A stretch of DNA of 64,000 nt, taken from an uncultured Paracoccaceae bacterium (lineage in GTDB: Bacteria; Pseudomonadota; Alphaproteobacteria; Rhodobacterales; Rhodobacteraceae). The position numbers and the translations under genes are program-made. Each line of letters starts with the position of its first letter. The first letter of the stretch is position 1. Positions 39,148 through 58,134 of this stretch are shown piece by piece. Location: positions 62,001 through 126,000 of the forward strand of contig CATOSU010000001.1 in the NCBI GenBank assembly GCA_951812615.1. The letters run 5' to 3'. The notes beneath the pieces are model-generated. The model did not search any database and was not told the DNA's origin. It saw only the letters and a program-made list of their open reading frames with translations.

Positions 39148-39552
39148 TCACCAAGCGATATTGCCGTCCCTGTCATGCACGATGGCGTCCACGTCGATTT
39201 CCACCATCATTCCCGGCTGGGTCAGGCCGGCAGCGACGCCGGTCAGAACCGGTTCCACCCCGGAAAACACCTCGCCATGGGCGCGGATGAACCCGGCCGA
39301 AGCGGAAAGGTCCGGCAGATAGGCCCGCACCCGCATCACGTGACGCATCTCTGCGCCGACGTCCTTCAGCGCCATCTCGATCCGGCCCAGAATGTAGCGC
39401 GTCTGCGCATAGGCATCGCCCGGTGCATGCAGCTTGCCTGAGGGCTCGACCGCGGTCGTTCCGGCGACATAGACAAAGGGGCCGACCCGTTTGGCCCGGC
39501 TATAGCTGCCGATCTCCTCGAACCGCCCGCCCCCGGATGCCTTGCGGATCAT
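39148..39552 (-). CDS. RidA family protein (enamine/imine deaminase)
   Basis: RidA proteins hydrolyse reactive enamines and imines. This 134-residue member has the fold signature AKRVGPFVYVAGTTAVEPSG, the middle helix YILGRIEMALKDVGA and the family arginine in MRHVMRVRAYLPDL. It is the last gene of the leftward microcompartment operon, two bases after the malate-dehydrogenase-like stop. In this context it may clear imines formed when glutamyl or N-alkyl-glutamate intermediates are oxidised. Confidence 0.88.
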   Translation of the reverse strand: MIRKASGGGRFEEIGSYSRAKRVGPFVYVAGTTAVEPSGKLHAPGDAYAQTRYILGRIEMALKDVGAEMRHVMRVRAYLPDLSASAGFIRAHGEVFSGVEPVLTGVAAGLTQPGMMVEIDVDAIVHDRDGNIAW

Positions 39553-39553
39553 C

Positions 39554-40732
39554 TTACAGCCCCAGCCTTGTCCGGATCGCTTCGGCCGCGGCCTGCAGCG
39601 CGGCCCGCTCGGCCGGCGTCAGGCGCAGTTCTTCGACCCCGATCAACCCGGTTGCGCCCAGATGTGCCGGCACCCCCAGCACCACGCCGGAAATGCCGTA
39701 TTCGCCGTCCAGCATCACCGATACCGGCACCGGCCCTGTCCGCGCCCCGCGCATATGATCCAGCAGCTCCATCGTTGCATGGGCCGGCGCAATCGTCGCC
39801 GATCCGGATTTTTTCAGGGCCACCACCTGACCGCCGCCGGTGACCGCATCCTGCACACAGGCCGCGATCTGATCGTCGCTCAGGAACCGGTCCAGCGCCC
39901 GTCCCCTGATCCGCGCCAGCGACGGGATCGGCGCCATCTCGTCGCCATGGCTGCCCAGCGTGATCGCCTGCACATCCGCTGGCGCCACCGCGGCCGCCCG
40001 GGCCAGCGCATGGCGAAACCGGGAACTGTCCAGCGTCCCGGCCATGCCCAGCACCTGCGCGCGCGGCAGGCCCGAGGCGCGCAGCATCTCGACCGTCATT
40101 TCGTCCAGCGGATTGGTGACCACGATCACAATCGCCCGCGGCGCCGCCGAGCGGATCGCCTCGGCCGCCTGATGAATGACCCGCGCGTTCACCCCGATCA
40201 GGTCCGCCCGCGTCATCCCCGGCCCCCGCGCCCGGCCCGCGGTCACCACGACCACATCCGCGCCGGCCACCAGCGCCAGATCCTCACCGCCGGTACAGCG
40301 CGCCCGCGTGCCGGTGATGCCGCTGGCGTGGTTGAGATCGAGCGCCGTCGCCGCCGCCAGCCCCGGCGCGATATCGATCAGCGCCAGTTCGTCCGCCATA
40401 TCGGCACTGGCCACCAGATGCGCCACGTTGCCGCCCACGCCACCGGCACCGACAAAGGCAATCTTGGAAAACCGCCGCACCCGGGTCGGTGCCGCCCGCG
40501 ACGGCGCCACCCATTTCGGTGAGCGTCTGTGCAACCCGCGCCTGAGCGCCGTCGCCCCGTCGCTGCGCACCGGTGCCGGCTTCTCCAGCGGTCCCTCGAC
40601 CAGCCGGATACCGATCCGCGCCGCGGTCTCCCGCGCCACGTCCGTGACAATGTCGCCCGGCAACAACTCAAACACGATGCGGCCGCGCTGCCGGGCCTCC
40701 TCGATCAGATCACTGCCGACGACGCGGGCCAT
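39554..40732 (-). CDS. Malate/lactate dehydrogenase-like protein with N-terminal extension
   Basis: This NAD-dependent 2-hydroxyacid dehydrogenase has 392 residues. The Rossmann motif FVGAGGVGGN is at residues 93-102. The substrate loop TAGRARGPGMTRADLIGVN keeps both malate-type arginines, and the catalytic His is in LGSHGDEMAPIP. Residues 1 to about 88 are extra: a helical part (SDLIEEARQRGRIVFE), a motif LPGDIVTDVARETAARIGIR that resembles N-termini of other microcompartment proteins such as EutT, then an Arg/Pro/Ala-rich linker. This could be a cargo-targeting tail. The ATG overlaps the BMC-T stop. It may regenerate NAD+ for the aldehyde dehydrogenase. Confidence 0.82.
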   Translation of the reverse strand: MARVVGSDLIEEARQRGRIVFELLPGDIVTDVARETAARIGIRLVEGPLEKPAPVRSDGATALRRGLHRRSPKWVAPSRAAPTRVRRFSKIAFVGAGGVGGNVAHLVASADMADELALIDIAPGLAAATALDLNHASGITGTRARCTGGEDLALVAGADVVVVTAGRARGPGMTRADLIGVNARVIHQAAEAIRSAAPRAIVIVVTNPLDEMTVEMLRASGLPRAQVLGMAGTLDSSRFRHALARAAAVAPADVQAITLGSHGDEMAPIPSLARIRGRALDRFLSDDQIAACVQDAVTGGGQVVALKKSGSATIAPAHATMELLDHMRGARTGPVPVSVMLDGEYGISGVVLGVPAHLGATGLIGVEELRLTPAERAALQAAAEAIRTRLGL

Positions 40733-41355
40733 CAGCCGGCCCGCCCGTCCACGGCCTCGATCGCCCGGGTCGCGGCGTCGATCGCCGTTTTGACCGAATT
40801 TTCGCTGCCCGAAAAGAACAGCCGCCCGAACCGACCCACGGCGCGCACCTCGACAATGTCGATCTCGGCGGCCTTCTCGGCTTCGTTGGTGGCAATGGAA
40901 ATATAGGCCGCCGGCGCGCATTCGACGATGCCCAGCGTCTGCCCGGGCACCAGCAGAGATCCCTTGCGCCACTTGTTCAGAAGCTGCGCCTGGTAGGGCT
41001 CCACGCTGGTGATGATCTGGGTCGATGCGATCTGCGGCTTGATCCGGTCCGACATGGACTTGCCAAGTTCGGCCAGGATCGCATCCCGCGCCATCGATAC
41101 TTCGGCGTTCGAGGGCGAGCGCAGGATGAAAAAGCCGAACTCACGTTCCACCATCTGCGTGGTCGCCTCGACCGAAGACGCCTTCAGCGCCCGGTCGATC
41201 AGCTGGAACACGCCATTGCCGGGCGCCAGCTCGCCAATCAGAACCGTGTCGCCGCTGAGCGGGATCGACCCCTGCACGGTGGCCCCGTTATAGGCCGCGA
41301 ATTTGGGCTGCAGATTGTCGATCTGCATCAGCGCCCGGATGGTAATCTCACTCAT
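40732..41355 (-). CDS. Microcompartment shell protein, tandem-domain BMC-T
   Basis: This 207-residue shell protein has two BMC domains in tandem, about residues 5-95 and 105-200; trimers of such proteins fill hexagonal sites in the shell and often carry gated pores. Recognisable pieces are GDTVLIGELAPGNGVFQLIDRAL in the first repeat, and LGIVECAPAAYISIATNEAEKAA with SENSVKTAIDAATRAIEA in the second. GGGAG precedes the ATG. It follows the aldehyde dehydrogenase gene after a twin hairpin. Confidence 0.88.
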   Translation of the reverse strand: MSEITIRALMQIDNLQPKFAAYNGATVQGSIPLSGDTVLIGELAPGNGVFQLIDRALKASSVEATTQMVEREFGFFILRSPSNAEVSMARDAILAELGKSMSDRIKPQIASTQIITSVEPYQAQLLNKWRKGSLLVPGQTLGIVECAPAAYISIATNEAEKAAEIDIVEVRAVGRFGRLFFSGSENSVKTAIDAATRAIEAVDGRAG

Positions 41356-41431: not shown

Positions 41432-41442
41432 CTCCCGCCCGG

Positions 41443-42822
41443 TCATGCTCCGTATTCCTCGTTGATGTCCCGCCACGGCCGGTTCGCATAGGCCACCCGC
41501 TTGATGTTAATCAGGTGCAGCGCCGTGACGTTGTCCGAGGTGATCGACCCCGACCATGTCCCGGTGCCCAGCATGAAGGACGGTTCCAGATCCGTGGCAT
41601 AGCCCGCGCCGCCATGGATCGCCGGCACATTCACCAGCACGCGTCCGGTGGGTACCGACGCAAAGGCCGCCACTGTCCCGGGATCGTCGCAATGGATCAC
41701 CGCGGAATGGCCCCAGCCCTCGAATTTCGCGATGCCATGCGCCAGCTCCACGCCATGGGCACTGTCGCGGGCCTCGTAGAAGGCCAGCACCGGGTTCAGC
41801 TTTTCGGCACTCAGCGGCCGCTGCCAGCCGATCTCGCTTTCCTCCGACACCAGCACCTTTGTACGCGGCGGCACCGAGAACCCGGCCAGCCCTGCCAGCA
41901 CCTCGGGCGCCTGTCCGACCCGCTCTGGGTTCATCGCCTGCCGGGCGGTGAAAATCACCTGCGCCAGCCGGTCCGCCTCGGCCGGGGTACAGAAATAGGC
42001 GCCGGCCAGTTTCAACGCATGGCGCATGTCGCGCGCGATCTCCGGATCCGCGATCACCGCCTGTTCGCTGACGCAGGCCGTACCATAGTCAAAGCTCTTG
42101 GAGGCGATGATCATCTCCGCCACCTCGTCCAGCTCCTTCGCCTTGGACCGGTGCACGTAGCAGGGCACGTTGCCCGCCCCCACGGCCAGTGTCGGCTTAC
42201 CGCTGGAATAGGCGGCCTTGACCATGGCCGGCCCGCCGGTGGCCATCACCACGGATGTCCGCCGGTGTTTCATCAGCTCGGCCGTTCCCTGGATCGTCAC
42301 CGCATCCAGACACTGGATCAGCCCGCTGGGCGCCCCCATCTGCTCTGCCACGCGGGACATGATCCGCACCACCTCGTTGCCGGTTTTCACCCCACGCGGA
42401 TGCGGCGCGCAGACAATCGCATTGCCCGCCTTCACCGCGCTCAGCACCTTGAAGATCACTGTCGAGGACGGGTTGGTCACCGGAATCAGTGCCGCAACCA
42501 CGCCCATCGGCTCGCCAAAGGCGGCGATCTTGGTGGCATCGTCGCGCCAGAGGCAGCCCAGCGTGGTGATGTCGCGCAGCCAGTCCGCCGTGCCGCGCGC
42601 ATTCATCAGATCCTTCATGCGCTTGTGTTCGGCATTGCCATAGCCGGTTTCTTCCACCGCCATCCGGCCCAGCCGCGCGCATTCCGACTCGATCGCCGCC
42701 GCCATCGCCTCGACAATCGCGTCAACCTGCGCCGGATCGGTGCCCAGAAACTGCTGGTAGGCGTCAAACGCCTTTTCGGCACAGCGCCGGGCCGCGGCCA
42801 CGGATTTCAGGTCGGCATCCAT
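41443..42822 (-). CDS. CoA-acylating aldehyde dehydrogenase (EutE/PduP-like, microcompartment type)
   Basis: This enzyme is predicted to oxidise an aldehyde to acyl-CoA with NAD+ and CoA, the core reaction of catabolic microcompartments. In the 459-residue protein the catalytic Cys is in FDYGTACVSEQAVIA. NPSSTVIFKVLSAVKAGNAIV followed by PHPRGVK is diagnostic for the acylating (EutE/AdhE/PduP) group rather than ordinary aldehyde dehydrogenases. The N-terminus DLKSVAAARRCAEKAFDAYQ could be an amphipathic targeting helix but may be just the normal first helix. Start is ATG 42822, with GTG 42825 possible. No phosphotransacylase or alcohol dehydrogenase gene is nearby. Confidence 0.9.
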   Translation of the reverse strand: MDADLKSVAAARRCAEKAFDAYQQFLGTDPAQVDAIVEAMAAAIESECARLGRMAVEETGYGNAEHKRMKDLMNARGTADWLRDITTLGCLWRDDATKIAAFGEPMGVVAALIPVTNPSSTVIFKVLSAVKAGNAIVCAPHPRGVKTGNEVVRIMSRVAEQMGAPSGLIQCLDAVTIQGTAELMKHRRTSVVMATGGPAMVKAAYSSGKPTLAVGAGNVPCYVHRSKAKELDEVAEMIIASKSFDYGTACVSEQAVIADPEIARDMRHALKLAGAYFCTPAEADRLAQVIFTARQAMNPERVGQAPEVLAGLAGFSVPPRTKVLVSEESEIGWQRPLSAEKLNPVLAFYEARDSAHGVELAHGIAKFEGWGHSAVIHCDDPGTVAAFASVPTGRVLVNVPAIHGGAGYATDLEPSFMLGTGTWSGSITSDNVTALHLINIKRVAYANRPWRDINEEYGA

Positions 42823-42965
42823 CACGGCATGTCCTGTTTCATTTCAATGAGAATACGCGCGTCCGGGCCGGGGCCGCGATTGCCGCGGGCAACGGTCTGT
42901 TCCCAGCGGATGGCTCGGCGGCCATCGCGTTTGGCCCGGTCAACCTGTGCAATCGAACAGGACAT
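42822..42965 (-). CDS. Possible 47-residue protein in the microcompartment operon
   Basis: A short frame fits exactly between two operon genes. Its ATG (42965) lies two bases after the opine-dehydrogenase stop, and its TGA overlaps the aldehyde dehydrogenase ATG (TGATG). The product begins MSCSIAQVDRAKRDGRRAIR and is strongly basic. I recognise no family. It could be a small structural or assembly peptide, or simply a translational-coupling frame. Confidence 0.4.
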   Translation of the reverse strand: MSCSIAQVDRAKRDGRRAIRWEQTVARGNRGPGPDARILIEMKQDMP

Positions 42966-42967: not shown

Positions 42968-44158
42968 TCAGCGGCCCTCCATTGCGATCCGGTCCATCGC
43001 CAGACGCGCCTCCGCAATATCGCCGGCCTCGATCCCGATGGTCTGCAGTTTGCGCCCCGCCGCGGCCACATCCGCGCCCAGAACGGCCGAGGCCAGCGTG
43101 ATCATCGATTGCGTCACCGGCACGTCCACGCCGGCAAGCTGTGCTGCCGAACACAGCGGCACCAACGATCCGATCACACCGTCGCGCAATAGCGCCCTGG
43201 CCGCCGCCGCGTCCGGCACGGGCCGCGGCCCGTCTCCCTTCAGGGTTCCGGCATGGGTGGCAATCCAGTCCTCGGTCCCGGACAGTTCCCGCAGACCGAA
43301 ACAGCGCCCGACCGCCCGGCGTTCCTCGGCCAGACGGTCGATGATGCTGCGCTGTTCGGGCCCGATCAGGGCCGCGAAATTTTGGTTCTCCGGCAGCGGC
43401 TGACCGCCCATCGGCACAGCAACAGCCCCCTCGCCCAGCGCCGGCCCGCTCATCAGCAAGGCCGGAAACTCGACCAGCGCGGACCCGTCGGCAAAACCGG
43501 ACGCAAGCACGCTGTCACAGGGCCGCAGGTTCGGCAGAAGCTTTGCCAGCCCGGCCAGAACCGGCGCCCGGCCCGACGGCAGCGTCGCCGCGGCCACCGG
43601 GGCCGCGGCAGAGAGGTTCAGCACCGCCCCCTGCGCATCGATCCAGTAAGGCAGCCCCTGACATTCGACGATGGTCACATCCGCAGTTGCCCCGCCGATG
43701 CGCAGAAACCACGCGGTTTCCAGCGCGCCCAGCGACCGGCCCTGCGGCAGGACCAGAACCTGCCCGTCGGACAGATGATCAGCCAGCACCATCGCGTAAG
43801 TGCGCTGCTTGTGCACCGGCCCGGTCAGAAAGATCACCTCGGCCCCGCGCACCGCACTGTCCAGCTCTGCCGTCAGGCGCACCGAGGGCGCCGCGTCGCG
43901 GTCCACCTGATAAGAGCCCACCGGCCCGGCCCCGCGCAACGCGATGCCGGACGCCGCCCGCATCGTTTCAAGCTCTGCACCATAGGCCGAAAACAGGGTG
44001 ACCTCGCACGCCCCGGCCAGGCTCAGCGCGGCAATCAGCCTTGCATCCGCGCCGCCGCCCAGAACCGCAATGCGGGTATAGTCCGGCACAGTGGCAGGCG
44101 GCGCCGAAACCGAAGACCGGCTCACCGCATCAGCAAAATCTGCGAAAGCGTTCGACAT
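42968..44158 (-). CDS. Octopine/opine dehydrogenase-like protein
   Basis: The 396-residue NAD(P)-dependent protein has an N-terminal Rossmann domain (TRIAVLGGGADARLIAALSL, about residues 28-47) and a C-terminal helical domain of the octopine/nopaline dehydrogenase type. VECQGLPYWIDAQGAVLNLS is the kind of substrate-domain strand seen in that family. Such enzymes interconvert N-(carboxyalkyl) amino acids with an amino acid and a 2-oxo acid. Because this operon probably makes N-substituted glutamates, an oxidative role is possible. GGGAGGG precedes the ATG. Confidence 0.7.
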   Translation of the reverse strand: MSNAFADFADAVSRSSVSAPPATVPDYTRIAVLGGGADARLIAALSLAGACEVTLFSAYGAELETMRAASGIALRGAGPVGSYQVDRDAAPSVRLTAELDSAVRGAEVIFLTGPVHKQRTYAMVLADHLSDGQVLVLPQGRSLGALETAWFLRIGGATADVTIVECQGLPYWIDAQGAVLNLSAAAPVAAATLPSGRAPVLAGLAKLLPNLRPCDSVLASGFADGSALVEFPALLMSGPALGEGAVAVPMGGQPLPENQNFAALIGPEQRSIIDRLAEERRAVGRCFGLRELSGTEDWIATHAGTLKGDGPRPVPDAAAARALLRDGVIGSLVPLCSAAQLAGVDVPVTQSMITLASAVLGADVAAAGRKLQTIGIEAGDIAEARLAMDRIAMEGR

Positions 44159-44229: not shown

Positions 44230-44538
44230 TCAGGCCGCCGAACCGGCGCCCAGCCCCTCGATGATCGCCTCCAGCTCGTCATGCGGCCGTGCGATCACAT
44301 GCACGGACACAACCTCGCCCACCTTGTTGGCCGCCGTCGCGCCGGCATCGGTTGCCGCCTTCACCGCGCCAACCTCGCCGCGTACAAGCGTCGAGACCAG
44401 CCCGCCGCCGGCCTTGGTCTGGCAAACGATGGTCACGCTGGCCGCCTTGACCATCGCGTCCGCTGCTTCGATCGAGGCCACGAGACCACGGGTCTCGATC
44501 ATGCCCAGGGCCGTCTGGCCCGCCGCTGGTTTCGCCAT
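44230..44538 (-). CDS. Microcompartment shell protein, hexameric BMC-H
   Basis: This single BMC-domain protein of 102 residues should form the flat hexameric tiles of the shell. The fold is clear from [20 protein letters not shown], the pore-side segment [20 protein letters not shown] and the C-terminal [20 protein letters not shown] precedes the ATG. It lies 23 bases downstream of the BMC-P gene. A degenerate AT-rich hairpin follows the stop at about 44189-44210. Confidence 0.95.
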
Positions 44539-44561: not shown

Positions 44562-44831
44562 CTATTTTCCAACTGAAATCTGATCCACGATCGCCACGAT
44601 CGCGGCATCGACCGGAACACCCGTCGCCTGAGCCGGCAGCCGTGCGGCCGAGCCTTCGACGATCAGAACCGTGTCACCAACCCCGGCCCCGCAGGTATCT
44701 GCAGCCGCGCGGGCGGGATCCAGCACCTTACCGGCACCGTCCACATAGTCCACGACCATCAGCTTGAAGCCTGTCAGCCCCGCGTTCTTTACCGTGGCCG
44801 TCACCGTGCCTGTCACCCGCCCGAGCCGCAT
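44562..44831 (-). CDS. Microcompartment vertex protein, BMC-P (EutN/CcmL/CsoS4 family)
   Basis: Pentamers of this 89-residue protein close the twelve vertices of the shell. The family pattern is plain: [21 protein letters not shown] at the N-terminus (first 20 residues and on), then [11 protein letters not shown] and [15 protein letters not shown]. Its ATG overlaps the stop of the glutamine-synthetase-like gene (TGATG). With one BMC-H, one BMC-T and one BMC-P, the operon has the full set of shell types. Confidence 0.93.
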
Positions 44832-46126: not shown

Positions 46127-46164
46127 CTTTTCTCCCTGTCTTTTCCGGTTCTTGCCATGCGACC

Positions 46165-46327: not shown

Positions 46328-47470
46328 ATGAGAACAGGGTCGGACATCATCGTCGTCGGCGCCGGCATTGCCGGCGTCATGACCGCCCTGCACCTGCAGC
46401 GCCGGGGCGAACAGGTCACGCTGATCGACCGCTGGGAACCGGGGCATTCCCGCGCCGCCTCGACCGATTACAACCGGGTGATCCGGTCAATCCACGGGCG
46501 CGACGATTTCTATACGCTCTGGGCGCGGGACAGCTGGAACCGCTGGCTCGAACTGCAGGCGGAAACCGGTCAGCAACTGATCTATCAGTGTGGCGCGCTG
46601 ATCCTCGCCACCGAGGGCCACTGCCACTGGGAAGACGACACCGCCGACACGTTCGACCGAATGGGTGTGCCCTATTACAAGTTTTCGCCCTCTGACATCA
46701 CGGCACGGTTTCCCCAGTTCAAGGTCGATGACATCGCATATGGCCTGTTCGAGCCCGAGGCCGGCATGGTCATGGCCCATCGCGGCGTGCGCACGGCGCT
46801 GGACCTGTTCCTTGCCGCCGGCGGCACGCTGAAACGCGGCCGGGTCACCACCGACGGCGAGGAACGCCCGATGCTGGACGGCCACCCGCTGGAGGCGGAC
46901 GTGATCGTGATCGCCACCGGCCCGTGGATGGCGGACATGTTCCCGCGCACGATCAAACCGATCGGAACCGTGGTCGGTGTCAACGTGTTCTACACCTCGA
47001 CCCCCGATGGCGATGACAGCTTCGATCAGGGGCCGATGCCCTGCTGGATCGACCACGGACAGGGCTCGTTTGGCTTGCCCTCGACCGAAGGCTCGGGCGT
47101 CAAGGCCGCGGTGGTCATTCCCAGCCATATCGACATTGATGATAGCGAACGGCTGGTCGATCAGGCCATGCTCAGCCGCACCCGGTCCTATATCCAGCGG
47201 CGCTTCCCGGGACTGGTCGGGGAACGGGTGGTCGATTCCAAGTTCAACCAGATCATCCTGACCCCGGACACGCATTTCATCGTCGACTGGCATCCGCAGC
47301 ACGAAAACGTGCTGTTTGCCGGCGGCTGCTCGGGCCATCTCTACAAACACGGCCCCGTGTTCGGTGATTTCGTCGCTGGGGTGGCCGTGGGCGACTATGG
47401 CACCGCCGACCGGTTCAAGATCGCCGGCCGGCGCAAACTGACCCCGCAGGAAAGCCCGAGCGGACGATAG
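46328..47470 (+). CDS. FAD-dependent amine oxidase, monomeric sarcosine oxidase-like (DAO family)
   Basis: The 380-residue flavoprotein has the FAD motif VVGAGIAGVMTALHLQRRGE near the N-terminus and a C-terminal FAD region TPDTHFIVDWHPQHENVLFA followed by GGCSGHLYKHGP. These match monomeric sarcosine oxidase and related N-alkyl amino acid oxidases; the cysteine that covalently holds FAD in sarcosine oxidase is not at the expected place just before the TPDTHF segment. It could oxidise an N-substituted glutamate or a gamma-glutamyl amine to an aldehyde. It is divergent from the microcompartment operon and shares its operator region. No strong ribosome binding site is seen. Confidence 0.82.
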   Translation: MRTGSDIIVVGAGIAGVMTALHLQRRGEQVTLIDRWEPGHSRAASTDYNRVIRSIHGRDDFYTLWARDSWNRWLELQAETGQQLIYQCGALILATEGHCHWEDDTADTFDRMGVPYYKFSPSDITARFPQFKVDDIAYGLFEPEAGMVMAHRGVRTALDLFLAAGGTLKRGRVTTDGEERPMLDGHPLEADVIVIATGPWMADMFPRTIKPIGTVVGVNVFYTSTPDGDDSFDQGPMPCWIDHGQGSFGLPSTEGSGVKAAVVIPSHIDIDDSERLVDQAMLSRTRSYIQRRFPGLVGERVVDSKFNQIILTPDTHFIVDWHPQHENVLFAGGCSGHLYKHGPVFGDFVAGVAVGDYGTADRFKIAGRRKLTPQESPSGR

Positions 47471-49030: not shown

Positions 49031-49735
49031 TCAAGCCCGCCGCACTGTCCCGGCCGCCAGATGCGCCCGAAAGAACGCCGCCACTTCCGCGGCATAGAGA
49101 TCCGCCGACACCTCGCCGGTGATCGTGGACCGCGCCGCCTCCATATCCGCCGCATCCATCAGCTCATTGCCGAACATATCCAGCAGATCCTCGGCAAACT
49201 GCGCGTCGTATTCAGGATGGAACTGAACCGAAAGCGCCGGAAAATCATAAGCCAGCGCCGCCGCCGGACAATAGGGCGCCGACGCCACCACTTCGGCCCC
49301 CGGCGGTATCCGCGTCACCTGATCCTGATGCGCCACATAGGCCGGCGTCGCGGCCCCGCCCATATCGAACCGCCGCGACCCGGCGGCAAAGACATGATCC
49401 GCCTTCTCTGCCCGGCCGCCAAACACATCCGCCATCAGCTGATGCCCGAAACAGATCCCGAACAGCGGCGTTCCGTGGTTCCGGTGCGCCTGCAGATTAT
49501 CCCGCAGCGGCTGCATCCATGCGGTCACGTCATATACACCCTTTTCCGAACCCGAGATGATCACCCCGTCAACCGCCCCCGGCGCCGACGGCGCATCCGG
49601 CCCGGCCACATGCACCGGCACGAACGCGGCCTCCGGCAGGTGCGGCGCGATCCAGCGGACCACATGGTCGCCCGTCGGCCCGTATTTTTCGGTCAGCGCG
49701 TCGCCCGCCACGCAATCATACACCGCGATCTTCAT
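49031..49735 (-). CDS. Class I glutamine amidotransferase-like protein (first copy)
   Basis: The 234-residue protein has the catalytic triad of class I amidotransferases: Cys in LFGICFGHQLMA, His and Glu in LSVQFHPEYDAQF. Stand-alone proteins of this type act as gamma-glutamyl hydrolases (as PuuD does in putrescine breakdown) or supply ammonia to a partner. It is one of two such proteins in an operon with split glutamate synthase genes, so splitting a gamma-glutamyl amide is a reasonable guess. The start at 49735 opens the conserved N-terminal strand. Confidence 0.83.
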   Translation of the reverse strand: MKIAVYDCVAGDALTEKYGPTGDHVVRWIAPHLPEAAFVPVHVAGPDAPSAPGAVDGVIISGSEKGVYDVTAWMQPLRDNLQAHRNHGTPLFGICFGHQLMADVFGGRAEKADHVFAAGSRRFDMGGAATPAYVAHQDQVTRIPPGAEVVASAPYCPAAALAYDFPALSVQFHPEYDAQFAEDLLDMFGNELMDAADMEAARSTITGEVSADLYAAEVAAFFRAHLAAGTVRRA

Positions 49736-49839
49736 GTCTCTCCGCTCCGCTTGCCGCGATCCGCCCCCGCGGCGCATCGCCCGCGTGCCGCCGCTTCCCG
49801 GGCTTTACACCCTCCGGCCCGGCCATCGCCACCCGTCTA

Positions 49840-50457
49840 TTACGCCGCACCATAGGCCGCCATGGCCTCCACCGTTTCCTGCAGGCCGCGCCGCGCCCCG
49901 GTCTGCAGATATTCCATTACCCGCAAAGCCGCCTCATGCGCCTCTTCCGAAGACCCGGCCACGCACTCCTCGATCACCCGGCAGAAAAAATCCGACTGGT
50001 GCCCGTCGACAAAGGTGTAATGCACGCAGACATCCGTCAGCCCGCCGACCACTATCAGCGTCTCCACCTTCAGCCCGCGCAGCAGGATCTCGAAATCGGT
50101 CCCGAAAAACGCCGAATAGCGCCGCTTCGGCACCCGGTAGTCCGAGGGCCTGATCCCCATCTGCTCCACCGCCAGCGCGGTGCGCGGATCATCCTCCAGA
50201 CAATGCACCGTCTCGGCCCCGTCCAGCTCCCGGCCGAAATCCACCAGGTCCGCCCGGTGCACCTCCTGAATGAAGATCACCGGGATGCCCGCCGCGCGCG
50301 CCGCGTCGATGGCGCCGCGCGCCTGCCACATCCGGCCGGCATAGCCGTCCTTGTTCGGTATCGCCCTGTCGTCGCTGTGATCGATAAAGGTCGAGGCCTG
50401 AATATCGATGACAATCAGGGCCGGCCTGCCCTCGATCAGCGCCCGCGGCTGGTTCAT
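49840..50457 (-). CDS. Isochorismatase-family cysteine hydrolase
   Basis: The 205-residue protein has the catalytic set Asp (ALIVIDIQAST), Lys (VPKRRYSAFFGTD) and Cys (VVGGLTDVCVHYTF) of amidohydrolases such as nicotinamidase, carbamoylsarcosine amidase and biuret hydrolase. A cis-peptide region VVGGLTD precedes the Cys as usual. Its neighbours suggest that it hydrolyses an amide or carbamoyl compound arising in amine or nitrogen metabolism, but the substrate is unknown. Confidence 0.85.
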   Translation of the reverse strand: MNQPRALIEGRPALIVIDIQASTFIDHSDDRAIPNKDGYAGRMWQARGAIDAARAAGIPVIFIQEVHRADLVDFGRELDGAETVHCLEDDPRTALAVEQMGIRPSDYRVPKRRYSAFFGTDFEILLRGLKVETLIVVGGLTDVCVHYTFVDGHQSDFFCRVIEECVAGSSEEAHEAALRVMEYLQTGARRGLQETVEAMAAYGAA

Positions 50458-50666: not shown

Positions 50667-51395
50667 CTACAGGCCAAAACTCAGCGCCATCCAGTTGTCA
50701 AAAAGCCGTTTCGCATCGGCGTCGAACATCCCCGCCTGCGCCCGGTTCGCGGCCAGAAACGCCGCCACGCCCTCCGGCCCCAGCATCGCGTCGAAATCGG
50801 CCTTGTATTCCGGCAGCTCGAGACAGGCATCGATCATGTCGGGAGTCAGCTCCATGTGAAACTGGACGCCGAAGGCCCGGTCGCCGACCTGAATTGCCTG
50901 CACGCCGCACGATGGCGATTTGGCCAGCGACACCGCGCCCTCCGGCAGTTCGGCCACCTCTGCCCCGTGCCCCTGCACACAGCTCATCACCGGCGACAAC
51001 CCGGCAAACAGCGCCGCTCCGCGCCCGGCCTTCGTCAGCTCCACCGACAGAATGCCCACCTCCGGCGTTGCGCTCGGCCCCACGCGACCACCCGTCGCCT
51101 CGGCCAGCAACTGATGGCCCAGGCACAGCCCCATAAAGGCCATGCCACGCTCCTGCACCGCCTCGCGAATGGCGGCCTTTTCGGCGCGCAGCCATGGATG
51201 ATCGTCTTCCTGCCAGACCTGCTGGGGACCGCCCAGCACCCAAAGCCCGTCGAACCCCGCCAGATCAGGGATTTGCCCGCCCTGATCCAGCTCAACCGTC
51301 ACCGGCGCGATGCCGCGGGCCGCGAACAGGGGCGCGAACCGCCCCAGATGCTCGGGCGGGCAATGCTGAAACACCAGGATGCGGGGCATCTGCAT
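50667..51395 (-). CDS. Class I glutamine amidotransferase-like protein (second copy)
   Basis: The roughly 242-residue protein belongs to the same superfamily as the product of 49031-49735 but to a distinct branch. Cys is in FMGLCLGHQLLA and His/Glu are in GVQFHMELTPDM. GGAGT lies before ATG 51395; GTG 51401 and ATG 51389 are alternatives. It follows the large FMN-binding subunit gene by 24 bases. It may provide gamma-glutamyl hydrolase activity or ammonia to the synthase; that is inference. Confidence 0.83.
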   Translation of the reverse strand: MQMPRILVFQHCPPEHLGRFAPLFAARGIAPVTVELDQGGQIPDLAGFDGLWVLGGPQQVWQEDDHPWLRAEKAAIREAVQERGMAFMGLCLGHQLLAEATGGRVGPSATPEVGILSVELTKAGRGAALFAGLSPVMSCVQGHGAEVAELPEGAVSLAKSPSCGVQAIQVGDRAFGVQFHMELTPDMIDACLELPEYKADFDAMLGPEGVAAFLAANRAQAGMFDADAKRLFDNWMALSFGL

Positions 51396-51419
51396 CCGCA
51401 CGCTACTCCGCTGCCCGGC

Positions 51420-52850
51420 TCACCAGTCGAAGGTCCGGTCGATGCCGGCCATCTTCACACCGGTATAGGCCGACGCCTCGAAGGACAGCGCGCGCAGATC
51501 CTCGACTTCCAGATTGTGCACCGAAGACTTGCCGCAAGCCTTGGCCAGCGCGGTGATTTCCATCGTCATCGCGGTCAGGTAACGGGCCACCCGCTCGGCC
51601 CCGGCATGGGGATCCATCCGCGCCTCCAGATCCGGGTCCTGCGTGCAGATCCCCACCGGGCACAGGCCGGTATGGCAATGGTGGCAGGCCCCGGGCGAGG
51701 TGCCCAGCTTTGCGTAATCCTCGACATAACGCGGCGAATTGCAGCCCATCGCGATCATCGCGGAGTTGCCGATCATCACCGCGTCGGCGCCCAGCGCCAG
51801 ACATTTCGCGGCATCCACGCCCGAGCGGATGCCGCCCGCGGCCACCAGCGACACCTTGCCGGTCATGCCGCATTCATCCAGGCTTTCCCGGGCGGCGCGG
51901 ATCGCGCTCATGGTCGGAATACCGGTGTGGTTGAGCAGCAGCTCGGGGCTGGCCCCGGTGCCGCCCTCAGCGCCGTCGACCACGATGATATCCGCCCCGG
52001 CCTTGGCCGCGATCGCCACGTCGTAACGCGGCCGCGTCGCCCCCATTTTCAGCGAGATCGGCACCTGGTAATTGGTCGCGATCCGAAGCTCCTCGATCTT
52101 CACCGCCAGATCGTCCGCCCCCAGGAAATCCGGGTGCCGGATCGTCGAGCGTTGGTCGACCCCCTCGGGCAGCGTGCGCATCCGGCTCACCCGCTCGGAC
52201 ACTTTCATGCCCAGAAGAAGCCCGCCGGTACCCGGCTTGGCGCCCTGCCCGACAACGATCTCCAGCCCGTCAGCCCGGCGCAAATGGTCCAGATCGATCC
52301 GGTAGCGCGCCGGCGACATCTGGTAGATCAGCAGGTCGGAGGCCGCGCGCTCCTCCTCCAGCATCCCGCCTTCGCCGGTGCAGGTCAGCGTGCCGACCCG
52401 GCTGGCGCCATAGCCCAGCGAGGCCTTGGCGCTGGCGCTGAGCGCCCCGAAAGACATCGACGCGATGTAAATCGGGATCTTCAGCTCCAGCGGCTTGGCC
52501 ACCACGTCCGGTCCGCGGCCACCGCCAAGCACCGTCGTCGCATCACAGCTCTCGCGGTAGCCCTCCAGCGGCAGGCGCGTCATCGTCGCCGGCACGAAGG
52601 TCAGATCATCGAAGGTCGGCAACTGCTTGTTGAACGTGTTGTAGCCGCGCACCTGATAGCGTCCGAGCTGCGCCAGCGCATGCACCTCCGAGATCGCCTC
52701 GGGCGTCCAGCGCGTGGACCCGCCCTCGTCATAGGACGACGGCACACCGGCCGGCCGGCCCTCGACGGCGCCGGCATCCTGAAACCGGATTTCCTCTTCG
52801 GGCGGCAGCTCGAACGGATAGGTGTACCCTTTGGTGTCGTTGTCAGACAT
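51420..52850 (-). CDS. FMN-binding glutamate synthase-like subunit (MgsC/GlxD type)
   Basis: The 476-residue protein corresponds to the FMN/iron-sulfur central domain of glutamate synthase. It shows the TIM-barrel phosphate region VDGAEGGTGASPELLLNHTG, GGIRSGVDAAKCLALGADAV and a cysteine cluster CHTGLCPVGICTQDP for a 3Fe-4S centre. With the two genes upstream it makes a three-part enzyme like N-methylglutamate synthase MgsABC of methylotrophs or GlxBCD of rhizobia. MgsC performs the reductive transfer that builds N-methylglutamate. ATG 52850 is preferred over GTG 52859. Confidence 0.87.
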   Translation of the reverse strand: MSDNDTKGYTYPFELPPEEEIRFQDAGAVEGRPAGVPSSYDEGGSTRWTPEAISEVHALAQLGRYQVRGYNTFNKQLPTFDDLTFVPATMTRLPLEGYRESCDATTVLGGGRGPDVVAKPLELKIPIYIASMSFGALSASAKASLGYGASRVGTLTCTGEGGMLEEERAASDLLIYQMSPARYRIDLDHLRRADGLEIVVGQGAKPGTGGLLLGMKVSERVSRMRTLPEGVDQRSTIRHPDFLGADDLAVKIEELRIATNYQVPISLKMGATRPRYDVAIAAKAGADIIVVDGAEGGTGASPELLLNHTGIPTMSAIRAARESLDECGMTGKVSLVAAGGIRSGVDAAKCLALGADAVMIGNSAMIAMGCNSPRYVEDYAKLGTSPGACHHCHTGLCPVGICTQDPDLEARMDPHAGAERVARYLTAMTMEITALAKACGKSSVHNLEVEDLRALSFEASAYTGVKMAGIDRTFDW

Positions 52851-52870
52851 GTTTGTCACTTCCCTGTCGC

Positions 52871-52935: not shown

Positions 52936-53628
52936 TCAGATCATCAGCCAGGCACTGGCGTCGCGGCTCTCGAAATACCACAGGCGCTCGCCCGAAATCA
53001 TTTTCCGCCAGTTATGCGAACTGTCGGCCAGCCCAAGCGGCTCCAGTATCGCGTTCACCTCGGCCACCTCCTCGGCGGTGGGCTCCTTCACCACCACGTC
53101 GACCCCGTAGCTGTCGACCTCGCCGGCGACCCAGACCTCGGCCGACCACAGCGCATCGGCGCAGCTGTCGCCGGCCCCGCCCAGCGCGATGATCCGGCCG
53201 GAATGGGCCATGAAACCCGACTGGTAACCGATCCTGCCCTCAACCACGATATTGCCGGCCTTCATCGCCACACCGCAGCGCGGTCCGGCATCGCCTTTCA
53301 CATGGATCGTGCCGCCCATCATCGCCGCGCCGACCGACATGCCGGCATAGCCGCCCACGGTGATATGCCCGTCGGACATGCCCTCGCCCACGGCCCAGCC
53401 CGCATTGCGTTCGATCTCGACCGTCGCGCCGGTGTTCAGCCCGCCGCAGTAATAGCCGACCGATCCCTCGAAATAGAGCTCCGCCCCGGGCGGCAGCCCG
53501 ACCCCCAGATTGTGCCGCGACAGCGTGTTGACCACGCGGATGCGGTCGCCGCGCCTGCAGGCCTCCTGGATCTCCTCGTTGACCTCCCGGATGTGGCGCT
53601 GTCCCACATCGACAATATACTCGCTCAT
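52936..53628 (-). CDS. Glutamate synthase-like GXGXG-domain subunit (MgsB/GlxC type)
   Basis: The 230-residue protein corresponds to the C-terminal beta-helix domain of glutamate synthase (GltB3). The repeating pattern is visible: GVGLPPGAELYFEGSVGYYC, AGWAVGEGMSDGHITVGGYA, GMSVGAAMMGGTIHVKGDAG. In split enzymes this subunit is structural and helps to form the ammonia or amine tunnel. Its ATG overlaps the stop of the amidotransferase subunit (ATGA). Confidence 0.88.
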   Translation of the reverse strand: MSEYIVDVGQRHIREVNEEIQEACRRGDRIRVVNTLSRHNLGVGLPPGAELYFEGSVGYYCGGLNTGATVEIERNAGWAVGEGMSDGHITVGGYAGMSVGAAMMGGTIHVKGDAGPRCGVAMKAGNIVVEGRIGYQSGFMAHSGRIIALGGAGDSCADALWSAEVWVAGEVDSYGVDVVVKEPTAEEVAEVNAILEPLGLADSSHNWRKMISGERLWYFESRDASAWLMI

Positions 53629-54569
53629 GCCGCCATTGCCCTGTTGCCGACGCCCCACAGCCCGGTCAGGCTCGGCCCGTCATAATTGATCACGTCGCAT
53701 TCATCCGTGAACACCCGGCGCACCGCCTGTTCCTCGGTCGCCATGGCAATGTCTCCGCCCTGGTCGATCACCACCAGCGGCTTCATCGCGAACCGGTCCT
53801 TGGCAAAGCCGATCCCATCGGTATTGGCAATCATGAAGGTAAATACCCCGTCGATCGAAGTGATCGACTTCTTCAGCGCCTGTTCCATGCTCAGCCCGTC
53901 TTTCATCTGGTCGCTGACCCAGACCGCGATCAGCTCGCTGTCATTGCCGGTCAGGAACCGGTAGCCCTGACGCTCCAGCTTCTCGCGCCACGTGTAATAG
54001 TCGGTGATCTGGCCGTTATGCACGATCGCCACGTCAGAAAACGGCCGCGCCCAGAACGGGTGGCTGGCATTGGGCAGCACGCTCGATTCCGTCGCCAGCC
54101 GTGCATGGCCCAGCCCGTGGGAACCCTCCATCTCGCGCACGCCGTGCTTGTCGGCCACCGCCGCGGCGCCGCCGACATCCTTGATGATCTCCAGCGACCG
54201 GCCGCAGGACTGGATCTCGATCCGATCCGTCAGCGTGTCGGCATCCGCCACCCAGGCCGCCAGATCGCGCGGATCGCTGATTTCCATGCGGAAACAGTAA
54301 TGCGCCGCACTGTCGCTCAGCAGCTGCGGATCCGCCTTCAGATCCGCGCCGTGATCGCGGATGACATGGACCAGATCGGCCACGTCCGCATCGATCGCCG
54401 CCTTGTCAAACCCCATCCCGCGCAGCACATAACCGCTGTCGCGCGGGGGGCCGTAAATGGCGAACCCCGTGCTGTCGACCCCGCGATGCTCCTGCGCATC
54501 CATCAGCTCGACCAGATCCCGGCCCACCTTGCCCGGGGCATTCAGTATACGTCCGGCGATTCCACACAT
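53625..54569 (-). CDS. Class II glutamine amidotransferase subunit (MgsA/GlxB type)
   Basis: The 314-residue N-terminal nucleophile protein has Cys2 immediately after the initiator Met (MCGIAGRIL), and RGVDSTGFAIY and LTGNDSELIAVWVSD match the glutaminase domain of glutamate synthase. In MgsA-type proteins it would process a gamma-glutamyl amide and pass the amine on. GGGAGG precedes the ATG, which is fixed by the Cys requirement. It is the first gene of the leftward operon, with a GTATAC palindrome 26-38 bases upstream. Confidence 0.88.
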   Translation of the reverse strand: MCGIAGRILNAPGKVGRDLVELMDAQEHRGVDSTGFAIYGPPRDSGYVLRGMGFDKAAIDADVADLVHVIRDHGADLKADPQLLSDSAAHYCFRMEISDPRDLAAWVADADTLTDRIEIQSCGRSLEIIKDVGGAAAVADKHGVREMEGSHGLGHARLATESSVLPNASHPFWARPFSDVAIVHNGQITDYYTWREKLERQGYRFLTGNDSELIAVWVSDQMKDGLSMEQALKKSITSIDGVFTFMIANTDGIGFAKDRFAMKPLVVIDQGGDIAMATEEQAVRRVFTDECDVINYDGPSLTGLWGVGNRAMAA

Positions 54570-54645: not shown

Positions 54646-54693
54646 CCGGAAACTTTCAACGTTTCCGGCCGTTTTCTGTCAAAGAAAACGGCC
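54646..54693 (-). terminator. Twin hairpin at the 3' end of the TetR gene
   Basis: CCGGAAAC-TTTCAAC-GTTTCCGG (54646-54668) and GGCCGTTTTCT-GTCAA-AGAAAACGGCC (54667-54693) overlap slightly. The second includes the TetR stop region. The pair ends TetR transcription before the synthase operon promoter. It is closely similar to the pair at 41384-41431. Confidence 0.75.
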
Positions 54694-55272: not shown

Positions 55273-55291
55273 GACGTCAAGGTACTCTTAA

Positions 55292-55322
55292 TTGACACAA
55301 TGTCAACTTTACACAGTGTCAA
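55292..55322. promoter_or_regulatory. Two TetR-type operators
   Basis: TTGACA-CAA-TGTCAA at 55292-55306 is a perfect palindrome, and TTTACA-CAG-TGTCAA at 55308-55322 is a second copy with one changed base, 16 bp further on. They lie between the TetR gene and the divergent oxidoreductase gene. Confidence 0.7.
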
Positions 55323-55350
55323 GTTGATCGACATCCAAGGAGACCCAGAC

Positions 55351-56061: not shown

Positions 56062-56080
56062 GCCGACCCGGAGGTGCACC

Positions 56081-56755
56081 GTGCCGCTCAAATCAATCCA
56101 ACCTGCCCGCCGCCGCCTCGCGGACGAGGTCTACGAGCAGCTCGTTTCCGCCATCATGCAGCGCGAGATTGGCCCGGACGACTGGCTGGTTCAGGAAAAG
56201 CTCGCCGCCGAAATGCAGATTTCCCGCACCCCAGTGCGCGAGGCACTGATGCGGCTGGAACAGGAAGGCGTGCTCGAAGTGTCCAACCGCGGCTCCTTCC
56301 GGCTCTACCGCATGGACGATCAGGAGGTGAAGGACCTGTACCAATCCCGCGCCGCCGTCGAAGGACAGTGCGCCCGCATCCTCGCCGCGCGCCGGGACCC
56401 CGCCGACATCACCTTCCTGCGCGACGTGGTGCATCGCGAAGAAGACCTGGAGACCCAGACCGCCGCGGCCTATTTCGACGCCAACCGCAACATTCACCGC
56501 GCCTTCATCGAACGGGCCGGCAACCGGTTCCTGCTGGAAATGTTCGACATGATCTGGGGCAAGGCCATGGCCTTCCACCTGTTTGCCACGATCGAAAACA
56601 TCGACCTGGCGCATTCGCTTGGCGATCACATGGCGCTGGTCGACACCATCGAAGCCGGCGACCGGGCCAAGGCGCTGGAGGCGTTCACCCGCCACATCCA
56701 GAACGGGTTCGACCTGCAAATGGCCGGGCTGCGCGCCGAAGGCCCCGTGGCGTGA
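56081..56755 (+). CDS. GntR-family regulator, FCD subfamily (candidate regulator of the amine/microcompartment regulon)
   Basis: The 224-residue protein has an N-terminal winged helix (about residues 12-75, LAAEMQISRTPVREALMRLE) and a C-terminal FCD ligand domain (FDANRNIHRAFIERAGN, SLGDHMALVDTIEAGD). The start is GTG 56081 with GGAGG upstream. A strong palindrome precedes it and matches sites upstream of the two amine-metabolism operons. The stop overlaps the start of the peptidase gene (GTGA). Confidence 0.88.
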   Translation: MPLKSIQPARRRLADEVYEQLVSAIMQREIGPDDWLVQEKLAAEMQISRTPVREALMRLEQEGVLEVSNRGSFRLYRMDDQEVKDLYQSRAAVEGQCARILAARRDPADITFLRDVVHREEDLETQTAAAYFDANRNIHRAFIERAGNRFLLEMFDMIWGKAMAFHLFATIENIDLAHSLGDHMALVDTIEAGDRAKALEAFTRHIQNGFDLQMAGLRAEGPVA

Positions 56756-58134
56756 ACCCGCGCGACACCGCACTGGCCCGCGCCGATGCACTGATTGCCG
56801 ACGGCACCTTCACCGACTGGCTGGCAAAACTCGTCGCCTGCCCGACCGAAAGCCAGAACCCCGACCGCCGCGCCGTCTTGCAGCAATACATCCACGACAC
56901 GCTTCCGCCGCTGCTCGCCCCGCTTGGGGCGCAAATCACGCGGTTTGACAACCCCGCCCCGGAGGGCGGCCCGTTCCTGCTGGCGGAACGGATCGAAAAC
57001 CCGGACCTGCCCACCGTCTTCAGCTATGGGCATGGCGACGTCATCCGCGGGCAGGACGATCAGTGGCGGGACGGGCTGACCCCGTTTTCACTGACCGCCG
57101 AGGGCGACCGGCTCTATGGCCGGGGCACCGCCGACAACAAATCCCAGCACCTGATCAACCTGCTGGCGCTGCGATCGGTTCTGGAAACCCGCGGCTGTCT
57201 CGGGTTCAACCTCAAACTTCTGATCGAAATGTCCGAGGAAACCGGATCGCCCGGGCTGGACCGGTTCTGCGCCGACAACCGCGACCGGCTGGCGGCGGAT
57301 GTTCTGATCGCATCGGACGGCCCGCGGCTCGACGCGCAGGTGCCGACCATCTTCATGGGCACACGCGGCGCCATCAATTTCGACCTCGCTATCCGGCTGC
57401 GCGACGGCGCGCATCACTCGGGCAACTGGGGCGGCCTGCTGGCCGACCCTGCCCAGCGCCTGATCCACGCCATTGCCACCATCTGTGACGCCCGTGGCGC
57501 AATCTGCATCCCCGAATGGCGCCCCGACAGCCTGACACCCGACATCCGCGCCCTGATCCGCGACCTGCCCGCCTCGGACGGATCCGGCCCCGCGATCGAC
57601 CCGGACTGGGGCGAACCGGGCCTGACCCCGTCCGAACGGGTGCTGGGCTGGAACAGCTTCGCGGTGCTGGCCATGACCTCGGGCAACCCCGGGGCGCCGG
57701 TCAACGCCATCTCGGGCGAGGCCCGCGCCACCTGCCAGCTGCGCTTTGTCACCGGCACCGACGCCGCCGGCATCCTGCCCGCCCTGCGCCGCCACCTTGA
57801 TGCGCAGGGGTTCACCGACATCCTCATCGAAGGCGCAGACAGGGTGCTGTTTCCCGCCACCCGGCTTGACCCGTCCCACCCCTGGGTGCAAACCGTGCGG
57901 CGCAGCATTGAAACCACCGCCGGGGCGCCGGCCCATGTCGTCCCGAACCTTGCCGGATCGCTGCCCAATCACGTTTTTTCCGACATCCTCGGCCTGCCCA
58001 CCGTCTGGGTGCCGCATTCCTACCGCGGCTGCTCCCAGCACGCGCCGGACGAACACACGCTCCTGTCGCTGTGCCATGACGGCCTGCGCGTGATGACGGG
58101 GCTCTTCTGGGATATCGGCGCGACGGACGGCTGA
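56752..58134 (+). CDS. M20-family metallopeptidase/amidohydrolase
   Basis: The 460-residue two-zinc hydrolase has the metal site signature FSYGHGDVI, then GRGTADNKSQHLINLLAL and LIEMSEETGSPGL, and a dimerisation domain in the middle. It is probably cytoplasmic. M20 enzymes split dipeptides, N-acyl amino acids or N-carbamoyl compounds. It is translated with the GntR regulator, so its substrate may be a glutamyl or N-substituted amino acid of the same regulon; this is inference. Start is GTG 56752. Confidence 0.87.
   Translation: MNPRDTALARADALIADGTFTDWLAKLVACPTESQNPDRRAVLQQYIHDTLPPLLAPLGAQITRFDNPAPEGGPFLLAERIENPDLPTVFSYGHGDVIRGQDDQWRDGLTPFSLTAEGDRLYGRGTADNKSQHLINLLALRSVLETRGCLGFNLKLLIEMSEETGSPGLDRFCADNRDRLAADVLIASDGPRLDAQVPTIFMGTRGAINFDLAIRLRDGAHHSGNWGGLLADPAQRLIHAIATICDARGAICIPEWRPDSLTPDIRALIRDLPASDGSGPAIDPDWGEPGLTPSERVLGWNSFAVLAMTSGNPGAPVNAISGEARATCQLRFVTGTDAAGILPALRRHLDAQGFTDILIEGADRVLFPATRLDPSHPWVQTVRRSIETTAGAPAHVVPNLAGSLPNHVFSDILGLPTVWVPHSYRGCSQHAPDEHTLLSLCHDGLRVMTGLFWDIGATDG

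Follow-up and report, generated by a model that had tools for sequence, protein, structure and literature searches.

How an amine could supply the aldehyde of a bacterial microcompartment (BMC) is the question raised by a locus in a 64,000-nucleotide stretch of DNA (hereafter the window) from contig CATOSU010000001.1 of an uncultured Paracoccaceae bacterium (assembly GCA_951812615.1). Shell protein genes, a CoA-acylating aldehyde dehydrogenase (AldDH), a glutamine synthetase (GS)-like ligase and the three modules of a split glutamate synthase (GlxBCD) are found there together. The genome, 6.0 Mb in 22 contigs, holds two matches to the shell protein family PF00936, both in this locus. We propose, with a probability of roughly 0.6, that the locus encodes a metabolosome that consumes a small primary amine aerobically via its tethering to glutamate, a reading drawn from sequence comparisons. 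The genes on which this proposal is built are listed below.

39148..39552, minus strand: RidA/YjgF-type imine hydrolase (PF01042, 73 bits)
39554..40732, minus strand: malate-dehydrogenase-like enzyme with a EutQ-like N-terminal domain, about residues 1-85 (PF00056/PF02866; NF004863, 308.8 bits, cut-off 283)
40732..41355, minus strand: BMC-T shell protein, CcmP-like (NF053796, 207 bits, cut-off of 340 not reached; PF00936, 42 bits)
41443..42825, minus strand: CoA-acylating AldDH, acetaldehyde-dehydrogenase/AdhE-like (TIGR02518, 464 bits, cut-off of 620 not reached)
42968..44158, minus strand: opine-dehydrogenase-like probable cargo protein (PF02317, 36 bits, cut-off 30)
44230..44538, minus strand: BMC-H shell protein (PF00936, 87 bits; 67% identity to E. 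coli EutM over 84 residues)
44562..44831, minus strand: BMC-P shell vertex protein (PF03319, 90 bits)
44831..~46126, minus strand, start inferred at MTGSDFSL: GS-like organic-amine ligase, predicted gamma-glutamyl amide synthetase (PF00120, 291 bits)
46328..47470, plus strand: DAO-family flavoprotein, monomeric-sarcosine-oxidase-like, divergent gene (PF01266, 155 bits)
51420..52859, minus strand: GlxD/MgsC-like flavin mononucleotide (FMN) module belonging to a predicted N-alkylglutamate synthase (PF01645, 322 bits)
52936..53658, minus strand: GlxC/MgsB-like module (PF01493, 55 bits)
53625..54569, minus strand, start inferred at MCGIAG: GlxB/MgsA-like class II amidotransferase module with N-terminal Met-Cys (PF13522/PF13537)

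The shell half runs leftward from a divergent intergenic stretch (about 46127-46327) in the order GS-like ligase, BMC-P, BMC-H, opine-dehydrogenase-like protein, AldDH, BMC-T, malate-dehydrogenase-like enzyme and RidA. A second leftward run comprises GlxB, GlxC, GlxD, a class I glutamine-amidotransferase-like protein (GATb), an isochorismatase and a further amidotransferase-like protein (GATa), with a GntR/FCD regulator gene further right. A simple codon-usage gene call gave the same frames as the family scans. The one exception was BMC-T, which shares part of its frame with the neighbouring one and whose identification rests on profile matches. Every item listed in a preliminary description of this DNA (BMC-H, BMC-T, BMC-P, AldDH, GS-like ligase, flavoprotein, GlxBCD, RidA, two class I amidotransferases and the opine-dehydrogenase-like protein) was recovered by the family scans. 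That inventory was nevertheless incomplete: it had overlooked the core malate-dehydrogenase-like gene (39554-40732) together with the isochorismatase, DUF1194, TetR, NmrA-like and GntR/FCD genes, and its range ended, at 58134, on an M20 peptidase which lies outside the conserved unit.

Proposed pathway

In the proposed pathway, whose reactions, amine and place of oxidation we infer from the gene set, its conservation, residue signatures and co-occurrence in sequences, the substrate would be a small primary amine, most likely of two or more carbons. In the cytosol, the GS-like ligase would join this amine to glutamate, yielding a gamma-glutamylamide, and GlxBCD would transfer it to 2-oxoglutarate to give an N-alkylglutamate, in the way suggested for GmaS and MgsABC when methylamine is the substrate. 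The N-alkylglutamate would then be split into glutamate and an aldehyde by a dedicated oxidoreductase: the DAO-family flavoprotein (hereafter DAO) in Proteobacteria, and an opine dehydrogenase tagged with an encapsulation peptide (EP) in some Acidimicrobiia. RidA may speed up imine hydrolysis. The shell would trap the aldehyde, the acylating AldDH would convert it into acyl-CoA with formation of NADH, malate dehydrogenase would return NAD+ through oxaloacetate/malate, and glutamate would be recycled. An N-alkyl-glutamate route had already been put forward in the preliminary description. It gains from the loss of the ligase ammonia site, the co-occurrence of GlxD with AldDH, the carboxylate-binding residues of DAO and the existence of shell-less relatives, all presented below, and has to be amended to include malate dehydrogenase, which had been left out.

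Conservation of the gene set

Relatives were sought by a pattern-based AldDH scan of 84,980 species genomes, which gave 115 confirmed cases, the best 80 of the 115 being kept. The genes of 74 loci (L003-L076) were compared with those of the window, and loci of another type (L077-L082) were left out of the 74-locus counts. AldDH was found in 74 loci, BMC-T in 72, the opine-dehydrogenase-like protein in 70, BMC-H in 69, GS and malate dehydrogenase in 68 each, BMC-P in 66, DAO in 65 and RidA in 63. The core gene set clusters beyond chance: all nine core genes are present in 57 of the 74 loci, with identical order and orientation in 57/57. Many of the remaining 17 loci are cut by contig ends, the full-length exceptions being L067, without RidA, and L068 and L069, without DAO and RidA. 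As for the nine loci without DAO, seven lie on short or cut contigs, and in the other two, L068 and L069, the gene is truly missing. Among the hosts, Rhodobacteraceae and Rhizobiales-type alphaproteobacteria predominate, alongside gammaproteobacteria and Acidimicrobiia, and many belong to marine genera. In Actinomycetota, carriers found at E <= 1e-120 amounted to 4/296 genomes of the class and 5/396 genomes of the phylum, three of the five being 46-48% identical.

A Liv-type binding protein follows in 52/74 loci, accompanied by the ATPase in 50, and is present in 44 of the 51 loci having more than 6 kb past RidA. The substrate could not be taken from this transporter, as the only matches of the L027 binding protein are to binding proteins of the general amino-acid type (22-45 bits). 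Neither could it be taken from family F36, found near the transporter in three loci: its L037 copy, the sole one scanned, is a D-cysteate sulfo-lyase above cut-off and lies on the opposite strand. In L004 (18358-21248), two amidase genes, which may feed amides into the pathway, come after the transporter genes, and the first has homologues in L024 and L051. A different Liv-type ABC transporter set, 26-39% identical to the transporter of the relatives, is located at the far end of the window (4876-8180, plus strand).

Linkage of GlxBCD and shell-less relatives

GlxD is adjacent to the core genes in 45/74 loci. Nineteen genomes were tested among the 29 loci without a nearby copy, and all 19 contain, outside the fetched stretch, a GlxD 72-93% identical to that of the window, the other GlxD copies in these genomes being at most 56% identical. 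Several of these copies lie close by, on the same contig as the shell genes; the transporter, GntR and GlxBCD genes of L116, for example, are separated from the L052 shell genes by about 10-20 kb. A total of 248 genomes of the window's family were then searched by AldDH (E <= 1e-190, 9 genomes) and GlxD (E <= 1e-200, 12 genomes), these two genes being used instead of shell genes. BMC-type GlxD was present in 9/9 genomes with the BMC AldDH versus 3/239 without it (Fisher p 2.6e-14, kinship uncorrected). GlxBCD as a chance neighbour is rejected by this co-occurrence and by the genome-level presence of GlxD: GlxBCD belongs to the unit.

These data bear on a different explanation, in which the shell, AldDH and malate dehydrogenase of a compartment related to the catalogued type MIC1 would treat an aldehyde made elsewhere, the amine genes being merely co-regulated. 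L077-L082, mostly from Burkholderiales, do share the shell, AldDH (51-53%) and malate dehydrogenase (38-39%), with no GS, DAO, opine-dehydrogenase-like or Glx genes in the stretches read, and the Zn-alcohol dehydrogenase (Zn-ADH), HAD, MreB-like and PucR-type genes of L079 fit the description of MIC1. However, GS, opine-dehydrogenase-like and shell genes form one conserved run in the relatives of the window, and GlxD accompanies them even at loci where it is no direct neighbour, which makes such a mere co-regulation very unlikely. The locus is related to MIC1 but is not MIC1, while L077-L082 resemble MIC1.

The proposed glutamate-tethering pathway is also reflected in the three genomes with GlxD only (L135, L136, L137), for each of which one stretch was read and shell genes were absent within that stretch. 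GlxBCD and RidA were found in 3/3 of these stretches, the same ligase (66-70%) in 2/3, and DAO with an NAD aldehyde dehydrogenase in 2/3. In L136, GntR, GlxBCD, GS (70%) and RidA (60%) are accompanied by an acyl-CoA ligase, an NAD aldehyde dehydrogenase, an MbcS-like acyl-CoA synthetase and an AmaA-like DAO, the last two below cut-off; the acyl-CoA ligases lie on the same strand as the other genes. L137 has GlxBCD, the L136-type aldehyde dehydrogenase and DAO, and RidA, with no GS in the stretch. L135, near a contig end, has GntR, RidA, transporter genes, GlxBCD and GS (66%), no DAO or aldehyde dehydrogenase being seen there. In the tree, the L136 GS groups with the BMC-locus GS of L051 (local support 0.997). 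L136 looks like the same pathway with the shell and acylating enzyme swapped for an aldehyde dehydrogenase and an acyl-CoA synthetase, and its gene set is the best hint that the product would be an acyl-CoA formed from an amine-derived aldehyde.

Other Glx contexts were observed in the course of this analysis. The genome of the window has a second cluster of GS and GlxBCD (GlxD 51% identical) at about 108485-113214 of G000:C4 (L119), beside genes for thiamine-diphosphate enzymes and one for an aldehyde dehydrogenase-like protein, with no MgdABCD among the genes scanned. A different DAO-family gene adjoins GlxD in L112 (8255-9418), L115 (10133-11317) and L116 (5523-6824), being 23-25% identical to that of the window in L112 and L115, and ThiO-like in L116.

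Loading of the amine

An alignment of 65 GS-like ligases, two of them from the shell-less L135 and L136, revealed that Asp50 is replaced by Ser in 62, Ala in 2 and Cys in 1, and Glu327 by Phe in 65/65. These positions of GS, placed by alignment, are the ammonia-site residues. The N-terminal loop is moreover longer, as in PuuA. An ordinary glutamine synthetase was rejected because both ammonia-site residues are lost in 65/65, and this loss together with the extra N-terminal loop gives the predicted enzyme the signature of an organic-amine glutamyl ligase. The same two residues are reported as lost in GmaS in passages of PMC7948447, and an extra motif of organic-amine ligases is described in passages of PMC11335346. 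As to the second step, the three MgsABC-type split glutamate synthase modules are recognized by Pfam, and GlxB retains the Met-Cys start of class II amidotransferases.

The ligase had been described as GmaS-like. The match to the GS-like family stands, and the profile score lends no support to an identity with GmaS: against TIGR03105, the model of type III glutamate-ammonia ligases, a family into which GmaS falls according to an excerpt of PMC6237917, the ligase scores 220.7 bits, short of the cut-off of 469.6. The suggested parallel with the Puu pathway also proved weak, since GS is 31% identical to PuuA and DAO gives two short matches only with PuuB.

This bears on a possible one-carbon (C1) compartment, in which methylamine would be converted into formaldehyde and then formyl-CoA, the shell containing the toxic formaldehyde. 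GlxBCD and the GS-like ligase do resemble the methylamine route, where N-methylglutamate synthase is proposed to transfer methylamine from the glutamylamide to 2-oxoglutarate (excerpt of PMC6237917), and the flavoprotein resembles sarcosine oxidase. By contrast, the ligase is far under the cut-off of the model that covers GmaS, and the closest relatives of the acylating dehydrogenase are acetaldehyde enzymes. Furthermore, GmaS itself accepts ethylamine, with the same kcat as for methylamine and a Km roughly double (58 uM and 27 uM, respectively, with 1.8 mM for propylamine; passages of PMC7948447), so that the gene set is no pointer to C1 chemistry, and a formaldehyde compartment appears highly improbable.

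Release of the aldehyde

In line with an N-alkylglutamate as intermediate, the residue pattern of DAO suggests an N-substituted alpha-amino acid as the likely substrate and oxygen as the likely acceptor. In an alignment of 67 rows, one of which is a paralogue (L072, 23%), the equivalent of K348 of monomeric sarcosine oxidase (MSOX) is kept in 67/67, K265 in 66/67, and both R49 and R52 in 65/67. These residues, placed by alignment, correspond to the carboxylate-binding Arg/Lys and the oxygen-reactive Lys of MSOX. The position of the covalent-flavin Cys is occupied by Asn in 60/67 and by Cys in 4/67.

The encapsulation-type helix belongs to the opine-dehydrogenase-like protein, not to DAO. The AlphaFold2 (AF2) model of this protein, with a predicted local distance difference test (pLDDT) score of 89.7, starts with a helix (residues 4-14), followed by a linker in which residues 13-21 fall below pLDDT 50, and then a confident fold, the nearest to which is 1bg6, CENDH (TM 0.73/0.82). 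Judging from this model, the N-terminus is probably EP-like and the protein is probably a cargo. A helix shuffle test was anchored on the F..F motif, which favours a positive outcome, and it took the wrong segment in two Acidimicrobiia rows, where 0.22 and 0.55 of shuffles were as good.

An EP-like helix on a protein present in 70/74 loci, along with a Liv-type transporter in many of them, would also suit an opine metabolosome. An amino acid imported with its N-substituent already in place, either a marine opine or an N-alkyl amino acid, would then be cleaved by the opine-dehydrogenase-like cargo or DAO, GS and GlxBCD only recycling nitrogen. This is an unlikely explanation, however, as the ligase has lost its ammonia site and hence is no ordinary nitrogen-assimilating GS, and as the products of known opine dehydrogenases are 2-oxo acids, on which an acylating aldehyde dehydrogenase would not act.

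AldDH and malate dehydrogenase

The fate of the aldehyde in the amine pathway depends on two further enzymes. The best matches of the locus AldDH, including TIGR02518 and, among solved structures, the acetylating acetaldehyde dehydrogenase 5j78 (411 bits), are acylating enzymes, which designates it as a predicted CoA-acylating type. In the malate-dehydrogenase-like protein, five active-site residues (the catalytic His/Asp and three Arg, the malate-specific Arg among them) are present in 72/72 aligned rows, six of which come from L077-L082. These residues were placed by alignment. The nearest solved relatives are malate dehydrogenases. The N-terminal domain profile matches the E. coli EutQ N-terminus with 22.3 bits, the best of 1000 shuffled decoys reaching 5.8, and a plain BLAST comparison with EutQ was not significant (E 0.39). 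Since this region forms a small folded domain in AF2, it would be a domain rather than a plain peptide. No PduL-type phosphotransacylase was found in the genome, and the scan of the locus proteins gave no alcohol dehydrogenase, so a complete metabolosome core, which comprises both, was not recovered, Pta/EutD-type enzymes being outside the search.

Points weighing against the proposal

Several observations weigh against the proposed amine metabolosome. In the window, extra genes sit between the Glx half and the shell half, and the conserved Liv-type transporter has no orthologue, without any match to its binding protein. Among the families listed, the curated equivalog cut-offs are reached by none of GS, DAO and AldDH, and the substrate therefore cannot be read from these enzymes. 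DAO displays no visible encapsulation signal at its termini, its tail being conserved, so that the aldehyde would be made outside the shell unless DAO is carried in, and no terminal encapsulation extension was seen on AldDH. At the position that aligns with the catalytic His of the helical domain of opine dehydrogenases, the 48 rows of the cargo protein have Glu in 43, Asp in 2, His in 2 (L068, L069) and a gap in 1 (L067). Finally, the genomes of L068, L069 and L133 all hold other DAO-family proteins, which blurs the complementarity described hereafter, and the latter rests on four Acidimicrobiia genomes, three plus one.

A third Acidimicrobiia protein, that of L133, also keeps the His, with an N-terminus of the helix-plus-proline-linker type; in all three His-bearing proteins the start is EP-like as judged by eye. 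No DAO lies beside the shell genes in L068, L069 and L133, and the two genomes searched have no window-type DAO copy at E <= 1e-20. In the fourth genome of the class, L067, DAO is found together with a His-less opine-dehydrogenase-like protein; the L067 GS is near those of other Acidimicrobiia (weak internal support), and its AldDH is placed elsewhere in the tree, the L133 AldDH branch being disregarded. With caution, DAO in Proteobacteria and the His-bearing opine dehydrogenase in some Acidimicrobiia may be seen as filling one step, the release of the aldehyde from N-alkylglutamate, and this complementarity is kept only as support because of the small number of genomes. In L133 (6301-16310, same class as L069), GlxB, GlxC, GlxD, GS, BMC-P, BMC-H, opine dehydrogenase, AldDH, BMC-T and malate dehydrogenase stand in one run. 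The L133 AldDH is only 44% identical to that of the window, and its opine dehydrogenase is 79% identical to that of L069.

A tentative extension of the proposal is that this would be the first microcompartment in which the aldehyde derives from a glutamate-tethered amine, with no B12 or glycyl radical chemistry, compatible with oxygen, and with NAD+ returned via malate dehydrogenase instead of alcohol dehydrogenase. In some Acidimicrobiia, release would be due to an opine dehydrogenase that is NAD-dependent and encapsulated; in Proteobacteria it would be due to DAO, and the opine-dehydrogenase-like protein would be kept there as an EP-tagged cargo whose active site has been rebuilt around Glu. 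An AldDH without any obvious aldehyde maker is a feature of many catalogued microcompartment types, and the locus offers one type a specific, testable source, namely a glutamate-borne amine. If true, several bacterial classes would have a new route for the turnover of small-amine carbon and nitrogen, engineering would gain a new class of encapsulated chemistry, and NAD+ would be recycled inside shells in a new way.

Accessory and neighbouring genes

The remaining features of the region are as follows.

47766-48740: DUF1194 gene
49031..49777, minus strand: GATa, a class I glutamine-amidotransferase-like accessory whose gene is conserved in the vicinity of GlxD (PF00117; family in 30 loci including the window)
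49840..50457, minus strand: isochorismatase-family cysteine hydrolase, occasional accessory (PF00857, 137 bits)
50667..51401, minus strand: second class I glutamine-amidotransferase-like protein, GATb (PF00117)
56081..56755, plus strand: GntR/FCD regulator (PF07729/PF00392; family in 37 loci including the window)

The GntR/FCD gene, conserved beside GlxB in relatives, is the probable regulator of the unit; it directly adjoins GlxB in many of them. In the window, a TetR gene and an NmrA-like gene (54679-55977) lie between the two, an NmrA-like match (44%) being also found there in L003. The isochorismatase has 74% identical matches in L052 and next to GlxD in L098, and no counterpart of GATb was found in the gene lists of the relatives' loci. 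The M20 peptidase, TetR, NmrA-like and DUF1194 genes were rejected as members of the unit, as they are not among the families conserved across loci. A DUF1127-type small protein gene (48602-48967, minus strand, 25.1 bits) overlaps the DUF1194 frame; 17 relatives have a counterpart, in most cases immediately preceding the DAO gene. Directly beyond RidA, ChrB-like (PF09828) and ChrA chromate-efflux genes (36850-38915, plus strand) are convergent with the operon.

Comparison with known systems

In the open-licence literature, searched without supplements, no paper was found that brings a microcompartment together with a GS-like ligase and N-alkylglutamate chemistry. The locus shares with the MIC types (Axen 2014, Sutter 2021) the shell set and the acylating AldDH, with no classical alcohol dehydrogenase found in the locus. 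With MIC1 in particular, it shares the shell, AldDH and a lactate/malate-type dehydrogenase, whereas the Zn-ADH, HAD phosphatase and MreB-like genes of MIC1 are absent among the locus proteins scanned. Passages of Sutter 2021 (PMC8217296) give no obvious aldehyde-generating enzyme for ACI, FRAG1-7, HO, MIC2-7 and MUF2-3. The locus is probably one of the later catalogued MIC types, and its place among the metabolosomes with an incomplete core, suggested in the preliminary description, is plausible.

The N-methylglutamate pathway (GmaS, MgsABC, MgdABCD) likewise has a GS-like ligase and three split glutamate synthase modules. It differs from the present locus in MgdABCD, which is not among the locus proteins scanned and in place of which a single-chain DAO or an opine dehydrogenase is found; here, moreover, the ligase is under the type III model cut-off, and an acylating AldDH and a shell are added. 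The GoaS organic-amine ligases (PuuA, NpaA1, IpuA) resemble the ligase of the locus by the loss of ammonia-site residues, as in PuuA, and by the extra N-terminal loop (passages of PMC11335346), while identity to PuuA is 31% and the neighbour here is GlxBCD. DAO matches the family of monomeric sarcosine oxidase and N-methyltryptophan oxidase, below the equivalog cut-offs, shares the residues for carboxylate binding and oxygen reactivity, and mostly has Asn in place of the covalent-flavin Cys of monomeric sarcosine oxidase. Opine dehydrogenases share their fold and PF02317 with the cargo protein, in which the catalytic His is replaced in most of the aligned rows.

The EUT compartment is close to the locus by its BMC-H, near EutM (67%), by an AldDH matched by TIGR02518, though below cut-off, and by the EutQ-like N-terminal domain carried by one enzyme. 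The absence of EutBC and PduCDE pointed out in the preliminary description is borne out as far as EutB, absent from the whole genome, and PduCDE, absent among the locus proteins scanned, are concerned, the genome-wide search having been made, of these enzymes, for EutB alone. Amine chemistry and NAD+ recycling differ from those of EUT, and the locus, a metabolosome by its shell and AldDH, is distinct from EUT.

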